NCBI GenBank assembly: GCA_022827625.1 | Contig: JAJEIE010000029.1 | Coordinates: forward strand, 1 to 64,000 | Direction of reading: 5' to 3' | DNA from: Candidatus Poribacteria bacterium | Lineage (GTDB): Bacteria > Poribacteria > WGA-4E > WGA-3G | DNA length: 64,000 nucleotides | Shown here: positions 53,484-59,312 of the stretch, one piece after another | Position numbering within the stretch: position 1 is the first letter of the stretch | How the letters are laid out: each line of letters starts with the position of its first letter | The notes under the pieces: generated by a model | What the model saw: the letters and a program-made list of their open reading frames with translations, nothing else | Told to the model about the DNA's origin: nothing | Databases searched by the model: none | Translations under genes and position numbers: made by a program

Positions 53484-54636
53484 TTTTTTCGTTTCTCCGC
53501 GATGGGCGTTCTGTTTCTAAAAGCGCGTCCTGAATTTCAGTAATCACCTTTGTCTGCGTCTCAACAGTTAATCGTGTCTGTAATATTCGTCTGGCGATGT
53601 CGCCTCCGATTCTCCCCAATGCCCATGCGGCGTGGCTTCGGATGAGAGGTTCGTCATCGGCTAACGCACTTTTGAGTACTGGAACAGCCCGCCGATCTCC
53701 CCAATTACCTATAGCAACGAGTACGTTCCGTAAGAACCCGCGGCGTTTGGCACGTTTGATCGGACTCCCTTTAAACCGTCTGCTAAACTCCTGCTGGGTC
53801 ATACCGATAAGTGATAGCAACTTAGGAGCAAGGTTTCCGTCGCGTGGATGGAACCCGGGTTCGGGTGTGGGAACGGCTTTGCTGTTCCACGGACAAACCT
53901 CTTGACAGATGTCGCACCCAAAAATCAGGTTCCCCATTTTAGGACGCAGTTGCTTCGGGATGCTCTCCTTTAGTTCAATTGTGAGATAAGAGATACAAAG
54001 CCGAGAATCCAAGAGATTCGGTTCAATAATCGCATCTGTCGGACATTCCTCAATGCAGCGTGTACATGTGCCGCAACTTCCACGGAGCGTCGGTGTCTCC
54101 GATTCCAAAGCGACACTGACGAGGATCTCAGAAAGAAAATACCACGAACCTGACTGCCAATGAATCAGATTCGTATTCTTACCAATCCAACCGATCCCTG
54201 CCTTTTGGGCATACTCCCTCTCAATAACCGGAGCAGTATCAACACAGACTCGAGTTTTCAATTCAGCTTCAGCAGCCTGTTTAATAAATTGAACGAGTGC
54301 TAAAAGCCGTTTCCGAATAAGTTCGTGATAGTCATCGCCCCAAGCATACCGGGAAATCTGCCCGCGTTCGGGATCCTCAGCGAGTGCTTTTGGTGGATCC
54401 ACCGTATAATAGTTCATTGCGAGGCTAATAACAGACTTTGCCTCTGCGAGGAGTTGACGGACATCCGTTTTGAGTGGAAGATGCTTCTCAAGATAGTGCA
54501 TCTCCCCGGCATATCCGTTTTTCACCCACTGTCGGTAGCGTGCGATTGTTTCACTGCGCGCTGCGGGTATAATTCCGACGAGTTCAAATCCGAGTTCGTG
54601 TGCGTGCGCTTGAATGCGTTGCGTTAGCGTTAACAT
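53476..54636 (-). CDS. queG: Epoxyqueuosine reductase
   Basis: A 386-residue protein starting at ATG 54636, which overlaps the pheA stop as TAATG; an upstream ATG at 54684 would run into pheA. DTAPVIEREYAQKAGIGWIG and NTNLIHWQSGSWYFLSEIL are QueG signatures for the cobalamin-binding domain. CGTCTRCIEECP and CDICQEVCPW bind two [4Fe-4S] clusters. The C-terminal third contains HEAT-like repeats (LIRSHAAWALGRIGG). It removes the epoxide oxygen in the last step of queuosine synthesis. queF lies at 26.4 kb. Confidence 0.95.
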   Translation of the reverse strand: MLTLTQRIQAHAHELGFELVGIIPAARSETIARYRQWVKNGYAGEMHYLEKHLPLKTDVRQLLAEAKSVISLAMNYYTVDPPKALAEDPERGQISRYAWGDDYHELIRKRLLALVQFIKQAAEAELKTRVCVDTAPVIEREYAQKAGIGWIGKNTNLIHWQSGSWYFLSEILVSVALESETPTLRGSCGTCTRCIEECPTDAIIEPNLLDSRLCISYLTIELKESIPKQLRPKMGNLIFGCDICQEVCPWNSKAVPTPEPGFHPRDGNLAPKLLSLIGMTQQEFSRRFKGSPIKRAKRRGFLRNVLVAIGNWGDRRAVPVLKSALADDEPLIRSHAAWALGRIGGDIARRILQTRLTVETQTKVITEIQDALLETERPSRRNEKND

Positions 54637-55703
54637 TACTGAGTCCCGCGTGGATAAGAGCCGAGAACATTGACTTCCCGACACAATTCTTCAAGATGCC
54701 CGAGTGCGACGATGACGCGTTCGTCAGCAATATGACCTTCCATCTCAGCAAAGAAGATATACTCCCAAGGTTTGGTTCGCGATGGCAGGGATTCCAGATA
54801 ACTCAGATTCAATTGTGCGTCCTCTAAAATACCGAGGGCTTGGTGTAGCGCCCCAACCTTGTCAGGAATTGCGAAAAAGAGCGATGTCCGATCATACCCA
54901 CTTGGGTCTGGCAGATACTTTCCGATAACGAAGAATCGGGTTGTATTATCAGGTTCATCCATAATGGAATTTGCGACGATTGGCACCTGATAAATTTCGC
55001 TCGCGAGTTCACTTGCGATTGCAGCAGCGGCAGGCTCCTGTGCAGCACGTCGCGCCGCTTCAGATGTACTCACCACCTCAATCTGTTCAGCGTTACTGAG
55101 ATAGCTTCTCAGCCATGTCTTACACTGTGCGAAAGGTTGGGGGTGTGAATAGACAGACCGAATTTCCGTGAGGGGTGCCATCGACAACAGATGCTGTTTT
55201 ATCGGTTGGAATGTCTCTGCACAAATCCACAACGTTGTGCGTTGGAAGCGTTCGAGAACATCACGAACGGTGCCTTGTAGAGAATTCTCAATAGCCACCA
55301 CGCCATAGTCTGCTCGACCCGACTCGACCTCAGTAAAGATGTCAACCTGCGGGCGGACAGGGATCAGTTCAGTTGACGCGCCGAAGTGGCAGAGCGCTGC
55401 TAAATGCCCGAAACTGCCAACAGGACCGAGGAAAGCCACGCGCTCTGATTCCTGTAAGGAACGAGAAGCAGATAAGATTTCTGTCCAAATTGCTTCCAGC
55501 GCGTCTTCGGGAAATGTTCCTTGATTTTGTGCCTTTAAGCGTTCAATGACCTGTTTGTGTCGATGTGGCACATAGACCCTGGCGACCCCAGTTTCCGCTT
55601 TTATTGCGCCGACCTGTTTGGAAATCTCTGCTCGCTTCTGTAGCAGGCGTAAAATCTGATCGTCAATTTCATTAATCTGGTCACGGTACTCTGTTAATTC
55701 CAA
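54636..55703 (-). CDS. pheA: Bifunctional chorismate mutase/prephenate dehydratase
   Basis: A 355-residue protein with three domains. Residues 1-85 are an AroQ-type chorismate mutase (RDQINEIDDQILRLLQKRAE, VPHRHKQVIERL). Residues about 88-265 are the prephenate dehydratase (VAFLGPVGSFGHLAALCHFG, GVVAIENSLQGTVRDVLERF, DNTTRFFVIGK). Residues about 272-350 are the regulatory ACT domain (TSLFFAIPDKVGALHQALGI, NLSYLESLPSRTKPWEYIFF), where phenylalanine binds. It converts chorismate to phenylpyruvate. It overlaps queG at the TAATG and follows a strong palindrome that may affect its expression. Confidence 0.96.
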   Translation of the reverse strand: MELTEYRDQINEIDDQILRLLQKRAEISKQVGAIKAETGVARVYVPHRHKQVIERLKAQNQGTFPEDALEAIWTEILSASRSLQESERVAFLGPVGSFGHLAALCHFGASTELIPVRPQVDIFTEVESGRADYGVVAIENSLQGTVRDVLERFQRTTLWICAETFQPIKQHLLSMAPLTEIRSVYSHPQPFAQCKTWLRSYLSNAEQIEVVSTSEAARRAAQEPAAAAIASELASEIYQVPIVANSIMDEPDNTTRFFVIGKYLPDPSGYDRTSLFFAIPDKVGALHQALGILEDAQLNLSYLESLPSRTKPWEYIFFAEMEGHIADERVIVALGHLEELCREVNVLGSYPRGTQ

Positions 55704-55738
55704 AAAATAGGTCTCCGCGTTATCGCTAATCGTTAATC

Positions 55739-55775
55739 GCTGACCGCGGTTCGCGAAGAGCGGTTTGCGGTCAGC
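55739..55775. repeat. Strong palindrome upstream of pheA
   Basis: GCTGACCGC (55739-55747) pairs exactly with GCGGTCAGC (55767-55775), with a 19-nt loop. GCGGTTCGCGAA is repeated directly inside and just after it. It lies in the 89-nt gap between the DUF5069 gene and pheA and could act as an attenuator-like hairpin or be one of the dispersed repeats. Confidence 0.6.
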
Positions 55776-55792
55776 GGTTCGCGAAAAGCCAA

Positions 55793-56038
55793 CTAACGAT
55801 CCAATTTTTTCATAGCGGCGATCATCTCATCGTCTGAGGGGTTATTTTGCACCATCTCAACGAACGCCTCAGCACTTATCTTGTGTTCCTCCAGGAACAA
55901 CTTATCTTGCGGTCACGGATAGATATACTCACCGATGATGCCCTGCAGTTTTGCGTTGGCTTTATCGGCAATTCTGGCTAACCACGGGATATCCCCTATA
56001 ATCATATCCCTGTGCCGCGGTTTCCAATCAAGAGCCAT
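55793..56038 (-). CDS. DUF5069-family protein with an in-frame UGA
   Basis: An 81-codon frame starting at MALDWKPRHRDM, with GGAGGTGA 5 nt upstream of ATG 56038. Residues 18-41 (PWLARIADKANAKLQGIIGE and YIYP) and 43-52 (PQDKLFLEEH) match DUF5069, a small family of unknown function. Codon 42 is UGA (55915-55913), at the position where the family usually has Cys before Pro-x-Asp. The frame continues as KISAEAFVEMVQNNPSDDEM to TAG at 55793. Either the UGA is read as selenocysteine, or a TGC/TGT-to-TGA change truncates the protein at 41 residues. It lies 109 nt after the UPF0182 gene. Confidence 0.65.
55884..55899 (-). promoter_or_regulatory. Hairpin just after the in-frame UGA (possible SECIS)
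   Basis: On the minus strand TGTTCC (55899-55894) pairs with GGAACA (55889-55884) around the loop TGGA, giving 6 bp. The loop begins 19 nt after the UGA and has G at its second position. Those spacings and the loop G agree with the loose bacterial SECIS model, but short hairpins meeting it occur by chance, so this is weak evidence. Confidence 0.35.
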
Positions 56039-56147
56039 GAGTTTCACCTCCTTTAATGACATATTGGTTATCAGTTGTCGGTTGTTGGTTAAGAAGCCCT
56101 TTGGACAAGCCAAAAATCTCTTTAATCAACAATAACCAACAGCAATT

Positions 56148-59100
56148 TTATTGTGTACTTCCCTCAAGTTGACGCAAAGTGTCCTCTAAAAGCTGAAGGA
56201 CGCGTCCATATTCTGCCCAGTCGCCAGCGCGTTGTGCGTCTTGCGCTTGATTGAAATAGCGACTCGCTTGTTGAATGAGACTTATCAGCGAGGTCTGATT
56301 TGCCCCGGTGTCAGTTGCGGTTTCAGTCGTTGGTGTCGTAGTGGTGACTTGAAGCATCGTTCTCTGTCCGAACATCTTGACGAGTGCTTCATCCAAGCTT
56401 TCACCCCAGACGACTTCATTGCCGTACCCGATAACGACCCTTCGTAATTCGGGAATAGCGGTTTTCTCATCTTCAGACTGAATATAGATAGGTTCAACAT
56501 AAAGTAGGGAGTTATTCATTGGGAGAATCAATAGATTGCCGCGTAAGACGCGAGATCCTTGCGTATTCCAGAGACTAATCTGTTGGGAAATCTCGGGTTC
56601 TTGGCTAATAAAGTTCTCGACTTGCATCGGTCCTGCGACCTGTTTTCCTTTGGGAAAGCGGTAAACGAGGAGTTGTCCGTATTGGGGCAGATCACACCGC
56701 GCGGCGAGCCATGCGGTTAAATTCGGTTTGTTGAGTGGCGTGTAGGGCAACATCAACATGAATTCGGCGCTCTCTTGTCCGGGTAGCCTAATCACGACAT
56801 AGTAAGGTTCAACGGGTTGCCCGTTTACGCTGGAACTTTGCGGAACCTGTTGCGGTAGAAACGGGTTCCTCTGTTGGGGTTGGACAACTTGTCGCGTCTG
56901 TGCGTCTGTATTGTCATAGAGTTCCCTACCAATCTCCCACTTATCTTCACCTGCATAAAAGGTTACAGGGTCCTTCATGTGATAATCTTGGTAGACGCGC
57001 GCTTGGATGAGGAACATAGAGGTCGGATAACGGATATGTGCTTTGAGTTCCTCTGGCATCTCATCAAAGGGTTTGAAAAGGTCTGGGAAGATTCTACGAT
57101 AGCACTCCACAATCGGGTCCTGTTCTCGTTCCATAACGTAAAAATCGACCGTTCCGTCGTAGGCATCAACAACGACCTTCACAGCATTTCGGATATAGTT
57201 ACCCCACGGCTCAGCATTTCGCTGCATACTTGCGACCTGTCGCCTTCTTTCACTAACGAATTCTTCCATAGAAACGGAATAGGGATAGCGATGTGTAATG
57301 GTATAGGCATCCATTAACCAGACAAGCCGTCCCTTATGGATAATGACGTAGGGATCCCCGTCATAGCGCAAGAAGGGTGCGATTTTCTGCACGCGTTCTC
57401 TGATATTTCGGTCATAGAGGATTTTGCTTGTTGCGGCGATTTCACCCGGTAAGACGAAGTTAATTTCGTTATCGAATTTGAGCATATAGACGAGTTTTCG
57501 CCAGAAAGAGTTTAGCTGCACGCCGCCTTGTCCCTGATATGCGTATTCGGCATACTGCTGTCCCTCTTGGGGATAATCAAATTCAAGCCCTTGGGCTCGA
57601 TCTGGGTGTACGATAACGTAGCGGTCCGTGCGTTCACCGTAGTAGATACGGGGTCCCGGGGTTTCACTGAACCGGTGCTGCCACTCTTCATCGTAGTCAA
57701 TAGGCGGCAGACCTTGAATATACATGTGGGGTTTCCCGTCAACAATTTCGTTAACAGGGCTCACAACAGCACCGTATCCGTGTGTATAGGTATAGGTTTG
57801 CTTATACCAATCATTTCTGATTTCAACGGGAAGTTCGTTGATGTTGAGTTCCCGTCCGGCAAGCATGACCTGTCGGATTTCGCCATCAACGGTATAGCGA
57901 TCGATATCCACATCGTTGAAGTCGTATTGTGATCTTAATTCTTGGAGTTGGCGGAAAGTTCTGCGTAAGGGTCGCCAATCCCAGAGTCGGATGCTGTTAA
58001 AAACAGGGGCGTTCTCCTGACTTCTTATATCATCATAGTTAAGTTGCTCGGTTAGCGGATATTCCTGCTCCGTCACGGTATTCTCAGCCAAACCGTAAGC
58101 TTGGAGCGTCGCTTTGATATTATAGTCGATATAATCCGCCTCCAATACCTGTTTTCTGGGTTCCACCTGCCATCTTTGTATAGCGACCGGATAGGCTTGT
58201 CCGAGGAAACCGGCGATTAGGAACACAGCGAATCCACCGAAAGCAAGCGTGTTGCTTTTCAAGAAAATGCTAATGATGAAAATAAAGGCACAAATTACTG
58301 TGATCCCGAGCATAATCCACAATACCGGGAGGCGTGCCTGTATTGCGGCATATCCCCCACCGCCACGTACCACGTCGTTTGAGGTATACAACAGATCATA
58401 CATGGCAAATTGATAGTTCCACGCTCGACAGAGGAGCGTTATCCCGGCAAGGGTGAACAGATGCGCTTTGACATTGAAAGGTGGACGGAACCGAAACTGG
58501 CTGGTATCCCCGGTGATTAACCCGTGGAAAAAGTAGATGACAACTGCGAATATTGTCACCAGCAAGAAAACCCCGAAAAGCGTCCCACAGATATAACGCC
58601 AGAAGGGCATTTTAAAGACGTAGAAGGTGACATTGTTCTTGAAAATCGGGTCGCGTGCGGGTGAAGTGAAAAATGCCTTTTGCCCGGACTCTATCTGAAC
58701 GGACGTATTCAATCGAATCGAACTGCTCAACACAGCTTCAACGCGCGCTTCCTGATTCGTGTCGTTAATATGAACGTTTATCGGATCCCCGACTTTTATA
58801 TTTTTCGCTTGAAGTTCCGAGGGTGCGACGGGGATTTCGTTAGTATCCAGATTGGTTTCTACAATAATAGGTGTAGCAGCGGGAAAAACGAGTTCATCGG
58901 CATTTGCGAAACGCAGATAAATTTCCCATCGGTCGCTGGCTGTGTAGCCCATCAAGACGCTAAAAAGGACTGCGAGCAAGGTCAGTCCGCCATAAATCAA
59001 CCTTCGCGTCGCCCCCGGATTGTCTGCGGCACCGTCTGCGAATTCTGCGCCTCCCATAAAAGCCGGACTGAGATAGGCGGGTGTGAATCGGTAGATGATG

Positions 59101-59312
59101 AAAAGATTCGTTAGGAGAATCACCAAATAACAGAGCCCAACAACTGCACCGACACCGATTTTTGTTGTCAGAATTTTAGCGTAAACGCCCCAATAGTCCA
59201 CGACCTTAAACCATAGGTAATCCGGGTAAAGGTTCACCCAGATGGCAATAAGTCCTCCAATAATTCCGAGGACGACGATAGTGGGAATCAAGCGTTTGGT
59301 TCGTGAATCCAT
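56148..59312 (-). CDS. UPF0182 (COG1615) membrane protein
   Basis: A 1054-residue protein with an N-terminal membrane part (about seven helices in residues 8-380, beginning LIPTIVVLGIIGGLIAIWVN and YWGVYAKILTTKIGVGAVVG) and a long soluble C-terminal part. The soluble half has the family blocks RYPTSMFLIQARVYQDYHMK and WLAARCDLPQYGQLLVYRFP. UPF0182 proteins are conserved and of unknown function, mostly from Actinobacteria, Cyanobacteria and related lines. GGAGGT precedes the ATG at about 13 nt. The C-terminus is a Gln/Thr-rich tail and a coiled coil. Confidence 0.9.
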   Translation of the reverse strand: MDSRTKRLIPTIVVLGIIGGLIAIWVNLYPDYLWFKVVDYWGVYAKILTTKIGVGAVVGLCYLVILLTNLFIIYRFTPAYLSPAFMGGAEFADGAADNPGATRRLIYGGLTLLAVLFSVLMGYTASDRWEIYLRFANADELVFPAATPIIVETNLDTNEIPVAPSELQAKNIKVGDPINVHINDTNQEARVEAVLSSSIRLNTSVQIESGQKAFFTSPARDPIFKNNVTFYVFKMPFWRYICGTLFGVFLLVTIFAVVIYFFHGLITGDTSQFRFRPPFNVKAHLFTLAGITLLCRAWNYQFAMYDLLYTSNDVVRGGGGYAAIQARLPVLWIMLGITVICAFIFIISIFLKSNTLAFGGFAVFLIAGFLGQAYPVAIQRWQVEPRKQVLEADYIDYNIKATLQAYGLAENTVTEQEYPLTEQLNYDDIRSQENAPVFNSIRLWDWRPLRRTFRQLQELRSQYDFNDVDIDRYTVDGEIRQVMLAGRELNINELPVEIRNDWYKQTYTYTHGYGAVVSPVNEIVDGKPHMYIQGLPPIDYDEEWQHRFSETPGPRIYYGERTDRYVIVHPDRAQGLEFDYPQEGQQYAEYAYQGQGGVQLNSFWRKLVYMLKFDNEINFVLPGEIAATSKILYDRNIRERVQKIAPFLRYDGDPYVIIHKGRLVWLMDAYTITHRYPYSVSMEEFVSERRRQVASMQRNAEPWGNYIRNAVKVVVDAYDGTVDFYVMEREQDPIVECYRRIFPDLFKPFDEMPEELKAHIRYPTSMFLIQARVYQDYHMKDPVTFYAGEDKWEIGRELYDNTDAQTRQVVQPQQRNPFLPQQVPQSSSVNGQPVEPYYVVIRLPGQESAEFMLMLPYTPLNKPNLTAWLAARCDLPQYGQLLVYRFPKGKQVAGPMQVENFISQEPEISQQISLWNTQGSRVLRGNLLILPMNNSLLYVEPIYIQSEDEKTAIPELRRVVIGYGNEVVWGESLDEALVKMFGQRTMLQVTTTTPTTETATDTGANQTSLISLIQQASRYFNQAQDAQRAGDWAEYGRVLQLLEDTLRQLEGSTQ

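Follow-up and report, generated by a model that had tools for sequence, protein, structure and literature searches.

A short DUF5069 protein of Poribacteria as a probable new selenoprotein family

Prokaryotic selenoproteins have been surveyed in a review of May 2026, which lists 119 families with domain identifiers and gives a model of the bacterial selenocysteine insertion sequence (bSECIS), i.e., a stem of 4-16 bp and a loop of 3-9 nt, located 16-37 nt from the UGA codon, with a G in the first two loop positions and a folding energy of at most -7.5 kcal/mol (PMC13188914). DUF5069 (PF16798) is not among these 119 families, and the review mentions neither Poribacteria nor Latescibacteria. In addition, no paper on DUF5069 or PF16798 was found in the open-access literature searched. 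Here, we describe a short DUF5069 gene with an in-frame UGA codon in a window of 64,000 nt from Candidatus Poribacteria bacterium (GCA_022827625.1, contig JAJEIE010000029.1, positions 1 to 64,000; contig C14 of a host genome of 5.0 Mb). Judging from its sequence and from that of its relatives, this is very probably a genuine selenoprotein gene. SelB loaded with Sec-tRNA-Sec would bind a hairpin with a UGGA loop, situated within the coding sequence shortly downstream of the UGA, selenocysteine (Sec) would be inserted at codon 42, where short DUF5069 relatives have Cys, and the product would be an all-helical protein of 81 residues.

The gene, its UGA codon and its relatives

The features on which this reading is built are the following.

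55793-56038, minus strand: short DUF5069 gene, probable selenoprotein gene (ATG at 56038, TAG at 55795-55793; Pfam DUF5069, 48 bits)
55913-55915, minus strand: in-frame UGA, codon 42, probably read as selenocysteine (TGA in 100/116 and TGC/TGT in 16/116 distinct relatives)
56047-56052, minus strand: predicted Shine-Dalgarno sequence AGGAGG, 8 nt before the ATG
55884-55899, minus strand: putative bSECIS hairpin UGUUCC-UGGA-GGAACA (loop 55893-55890), supported by loop conservation, covariation and zero synonymous variation

The gene thus consists of AGGAGG, 8 nt, 41 codons including the ATG, the UGA, 39 codons and a TAG, and its 81 codons would be translated by read-through into MALDWKPRHRDMIIGDIPWLARIADKANAKLQGIIGEYIYP-U-PQDKLFLEEHKISAEAFVEMVQNNPSDDEMIAAMKKLDR, with the UGA in the context GEYIYP-U-PQDK. 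The initial annotation had correctly placed this frame, its good ribosome site and the UGA within IYP-x-PQD, followed by 39 family-like codons; its coordinates stand and the strand, which it left unsaid, is minus.

We scanned 84,980 species genomes once and obtained 74 relatives; the addition of genomes from the same phylum and from the phylum of L067 led to 116 distinct short DUF5069 sequences, drawn from Poribacteria, Latescibacterota-type genomes and Limnochordia, one Gemmatimonadaceae metagenome-assembled genome also holding a Cys form. Codon 42 is TGA in 100 of them, TGC in 12 and TGT in 4, with no other codon. Alignment of orthologues, the check proposed at the outset, gave TGA in 59/59 aligned Poribacteria genes, and all Poribacteria members among the 74 scan relatives likewise have TGA; the UGA and its hairpin are conserved across two bacterial phyla. 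Overall, the TGA gene is found in 72/85 Poribacteria genomes, while P0001 was matched in 80/85, a few of these matches being only to longer DUF5069 proteins. Cys forms occur in one family-level group of Poribacteria (G006-G011) and, outside this phylum, in several Latescibacterota-type genomes (L128-L133), in the Gemmatimonadaceae genome (L075/L118) and in Limnochordia (L074, L077 and L078). When 199 genomes of the phylum to which the Limnochordia member belongs were surveyed, only two further members came up, neither with TGA, and the protein was not found in the plasmid collection. In a tree of 75 proteins built on only 78 columns, Sec and Cys genes fall in blocks, with a minimum of four Sec/Cys changes, two of them forced by well-supported branches. 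One locus deserves a separate mention for its provenance: L072, from a record titled Alphaproteobacteria bacterium, matches Latescibacterota-type genes almost exactly in sequence and neighbours, and selA is absent from its genome (G093); it is probably a misbinned contig.

The codons located after the UGA are under strong purifying selection. Indeed, the mean dN/dS, computed as a ratio of means over pairs of 14 divergent Poribacteria genes after dropping pairs with saturated dS, is 0.071 for the part preceding the UGA and 0.099 for the part following it, in line with the lack of downstream decay remarked earlier. A pseudogene or a sequencing error, in which a TGC or TGT codon has recently become TGA or was misread, has for it that the Cys codons of the relatives are only a single substitution away from TGA. 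However, 100 distinct relatives, coming from many independent assemblies, share this TGA, and selection persists downstream; the orthologue alignment already refutes this explanation, to which we give a negligible probability. The initial annotation had left the choice between recoding and a single TGC/TGT-to-TGA change. The latter is excluded, because TGA is conserved and the hairpin both tracks TGA and covaries, and recoding is supported by these same features together with the Sec machinery of the host.

Regarding this machinery, a check of the host genome for selA, selB, selD and tRNA-Sec found all four: a tRNA-Sec(UCA) of 78 bits (anticodon TCA), selB (348 bits), which shares its contig and lies ~160 nt away, selA (595 bits), and selD (362 bits; G000:C40:54720-55643, L101), which has its own in-frame UGA in CAGUASK. 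More broadly, selA was above the cut-off in 64/72 Poribacteria genomes carrying the TGA gene and in 12/15 non-Poribacteria genomes tested. Global reassignment of UGA was considered and rejected, since TGA terminates 9/45 long open frames in the window. As UGA is a normal stop in the host genome, it might also be a real stop here, yielding a functional 41-residue product with the downstream part being a separate, reinitiated frame. We regard this as very improbable, as the Cys homologues read straight across the same 81-residue protein, neither TAA nor TAG was ever found at codon 42 among the 116 relatives, the hairpin is tied to TGA, and three of the four predicted helices follow the UGA.

A hairpin that follows the UGA

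The hairpin is exactly as first described, with a 6-bp stem starting 13 nt and a UGGA loop 19 nt after the UGA, a geometry that fits the bSECIS model. The loop UGGA is present in 100/100 TGA genes, and the stem core UUCC-UGGA-GGAA is kept in all of them, with a single mismatch beside the loop in one (L136). The closing pair covaries while always being paired (G-C in 83, C-G in 16 and A-U in 1 of the 100 Sec genes). For the 7-pair helix, across 45 distinct 23-mers, 91.1% of cells pair compared to 77.6% after shuffling, with a covariation score of 0.290 compared to 0.082; none of 500 shuffles reaches either observed value and sliding the partners destroys the signal, the shuffles ignoring relatedness, the slid controls accounting for it and the counts being sequences and not independent events. 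The hairpin is unchanged among Sec genes whose proteins are as little as 56-60% identical, and in G016, in which one codon is inserted between the UGA and the hairpin, it is intact. Moreover, codons 48-51 (TTC CTG GAG GAA, encoding FLEE), which lie under the core, show zero synonymous change in the 59 Poribacteria genes, while nearly all other degenerate codons vary; these codons are not dominant ones, with frequencies in the genes of the window of.52 for TTC,.16 for CTG,.36 for GAG and.64 for GAA.

The hairpin is broken in 15/16 Cys homologues, including its decay in G006-G011, which belong to the same phylum. In the remaining one, L128, codon 42 is TGT and a 7-bp stem survives with a loop UACA instead of UGGA, the two G being gone; it is likely the relic of a lost SECIS element in a gene that lost Sec recently. 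With Sec and Cys forms found within one phylum, L128 included, the gain and the loss of Sec can be compared in a natural setting. These patterns also bear on the proposal that a suppressor tRNA or basal read-through places Cys, Trp or Gly at the UGA. The aligned residue of the homologues is indeed Cys, but the host has a complete Sec machinery with tRNA-Sec(UCA), a hairpin with a bSECIS loop occurs only in TGA genes, its loop being lost in Cys genes, and TGA terminates other genes, which makes such decoding most unlikely.

Some observations weigh against Sec insertion. The hairpin of the window has a folding energy of -6.5 kcal/mol over 26 nt, weaker than the cut-off of the bSECIS model (-9.6 for the 63-nt fold), the 26-nt energies of other Sec genes ranging from -5.6 to -11.8 kcal/mol. 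It is also no more stable than its shuffles (z = +1.06 over 63 nt). Folding the region downstream of the UGA, as had been proposed, upheld the bSECIS geometry and gave no significant energy; the support for the hairpin is comparative. A search of positions 55700-56150 with Rfam gave no SECIS match. Against Sec insertion there is also the selA count: of the 72 TGA-carrying Poribacteria genomes, 2 have selA as partial pieces only and 6 have none; these six cases are likely assembly gaps, because the genomes are mostly draft assemblies.

Protein fold, gene neighbours and possible role

The protein matches Pfam DUF5069 with 48.3 bits (cut-off 27), and all 27 members of A1 match this family (PF16798). 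Only positions 4-75 of the 133 of the profile are covered, so that it is a short form of the family and not a full-length member. An AlphaFold2 model (mean predicted local distance difference test score of 84) has helices at residues 20-32, 43-51, 56-65 and 69-80, residue 42 being located directly before the second one. Invariant residues include P7, R8, R10, G15, W19, R22, D25, K26, Y38, P41, Sec/Cys42, D45 and D69. Sec42 would be the sole Cys or Sec of the protein, and the alignment of short DUF5069 sequences contains no second conserved Cys and no CxxU/UxxC motif. With four predicted helices and 3omd as sole convincing match, the protein does not have a thioredoxin-like fold with such a motif. 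Indeed, Foldseek against the PDB returned only 3omd_A (probability 1.00, E 2.7e-3, TM 0.82), titled 'unknown function protein from Leptospirillum rubarum', and the fold consequently gives no functional lead. The family profile also matches 3omd by sequence (E 4.8e-15, 58 bits), and the residue aligned to Sec42 is a Cys, in YNCPLD.

The statement that DUF5069 members normally have Cys at this position thus holds for the short relatives and for 3omd, and fails for three repeats found elsewhere in the genome. These repeats belong to a 428-aa protein (G000:C12:13333-14580, loci L001-L003), which at the aligned position is without Cys (EYLYGESSGLDQ). Throughout the phylum, long open frames that match DUF5069 more than once are frequently found.

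In the window, the gene is flanked by two genes of the same strand.

54636-55703, minus strand: pheA, downstream neighbour (chorismate mutase / prephenate dehydratase / ACT; Pfam CM_2, PDT and ACT)
56148-59312, minus strand: UPF0182 membrane protein of 1054 aa, upstream neighbour (Pfam UPF0182)

Between the DUF5069 gene and pheA, positions 55730-55790 hold a repeated and inverted GC-rich stretch, with variants of CGCGAACCGCTGACCGC / GCGGTTTGCGGTCAGCGGTTCGCG. Most Poribacteria loci have pheA next to the short DUF5069 gene, and this holds for the Sec as well as the Cys lineages. Linkage to UPF0182, seen in 58/85 loci, is kept in most Poribacteria and not in the outer families. In three related genomes (G024-G026; L114, L115 and L116), the gene immediately upstream of the Sec DUF5069 gene encodes a glutaredoxin-thioredoxin reductase fusion. 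For Latescibacterota-type genomes and Limnochordia, the upstream gene encodes a kinase-like protein, labelled so from its motifs, for which Pfam gave no family in the former and a sub-threshold RIO1 match in the latter. In 11 loci of this kinase-like context, an NAD-binding oxidoreductase is encoded downstream, adjacent to the DUF5069 gene in Latescibacterota-type genomes.

Our best guess, which we hold with about even confidence, is a redox role. The protein could be a one-selenol redox catalyst, either peroxidase-like or a mixed-selenosulfide oxidoreductase, and its selenol would be restored by an external thiol or flavoprotein reductase; with no second conserved Cys, the protein would depend on such a partner for any redox cycle. 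In favour of this role are the reductase fusion adjacent in the three related genomes and the NAD-binding oxidoreductase adjacent in Latescibacterota-type genomes. It counts against this role that its genomic context is thin, because the neighbours differ between lineages. It is possible, although less likely, that the protein is a selenoprotein in which Sec serves to bind a metal, a metalloid or an electrophile instead of redox catalysis, as the lack of a second Cys or of a CxxU/UxxC motif and an all-helical fold unlike thioredoxin would suggest. Against this, reductase genes are adjacent in two separate lineages, and a large number of selenoproteins either have redox motifs or are homologues of thiol oxidoreductases (PMC13188914).

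Place among known selenoproteins

While selenoproteins and bSECIS elements themselves are already known, the conclusion that the short DUF5069 proteins form a new selenoprotein family is well supported; NCBIfam has no matching model for them. It would add one family to the ~119 described, in phyla of mostly uncultured bacteria, and in a gene that standard annotation would split at the UGA or miss. For DUF5069, a family with a solved structure and no known function, the pattern at this residue provides a strong hint that one position may be catalytic. The odds appear roughly balanced that this is a Sec family present in nearly the whole Poribacteria phylum and also widespread among Latescibacterota-type genomes, with an all-helical, non-thioredoxin fold and a lone Sec before a helix, forming a redox (or metal/electrophile-handling) site unlike those of known selenoenzymes.

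The closest described proteins are the other DUF5069 members, including 3omd, with which the Poribacteria form shares a significant sequence match, the same predicted fold (TM 0.82 by query) and the position of Sec, occupied by Cys in 3omd; it differs by its length of 81 aa, its match limited to positions 4-75 of the 133-position profile and the probable replacement of Cys by Sec. The selenoproteins listed in PMC13188914 also include, from comparative evidence, the unknown-function domains DUF466/KCU-star, DUF523, DUF166 and DUF1858, which according to the domain models given there belong to other families and which have different Sec motifs. With selenoproteins read through a bSECIS, such as FdhA, SelD and GrdA, the short DUF5069 protein has in common an in-frame UGA, SelB and tRNA-Sec, Cys homologues and a hairpin just downstream with a G in the first two loop positions, whereas it stands outside the 119 listed families, is not thioredoxin-like and has no UxxC/CxxU motif.
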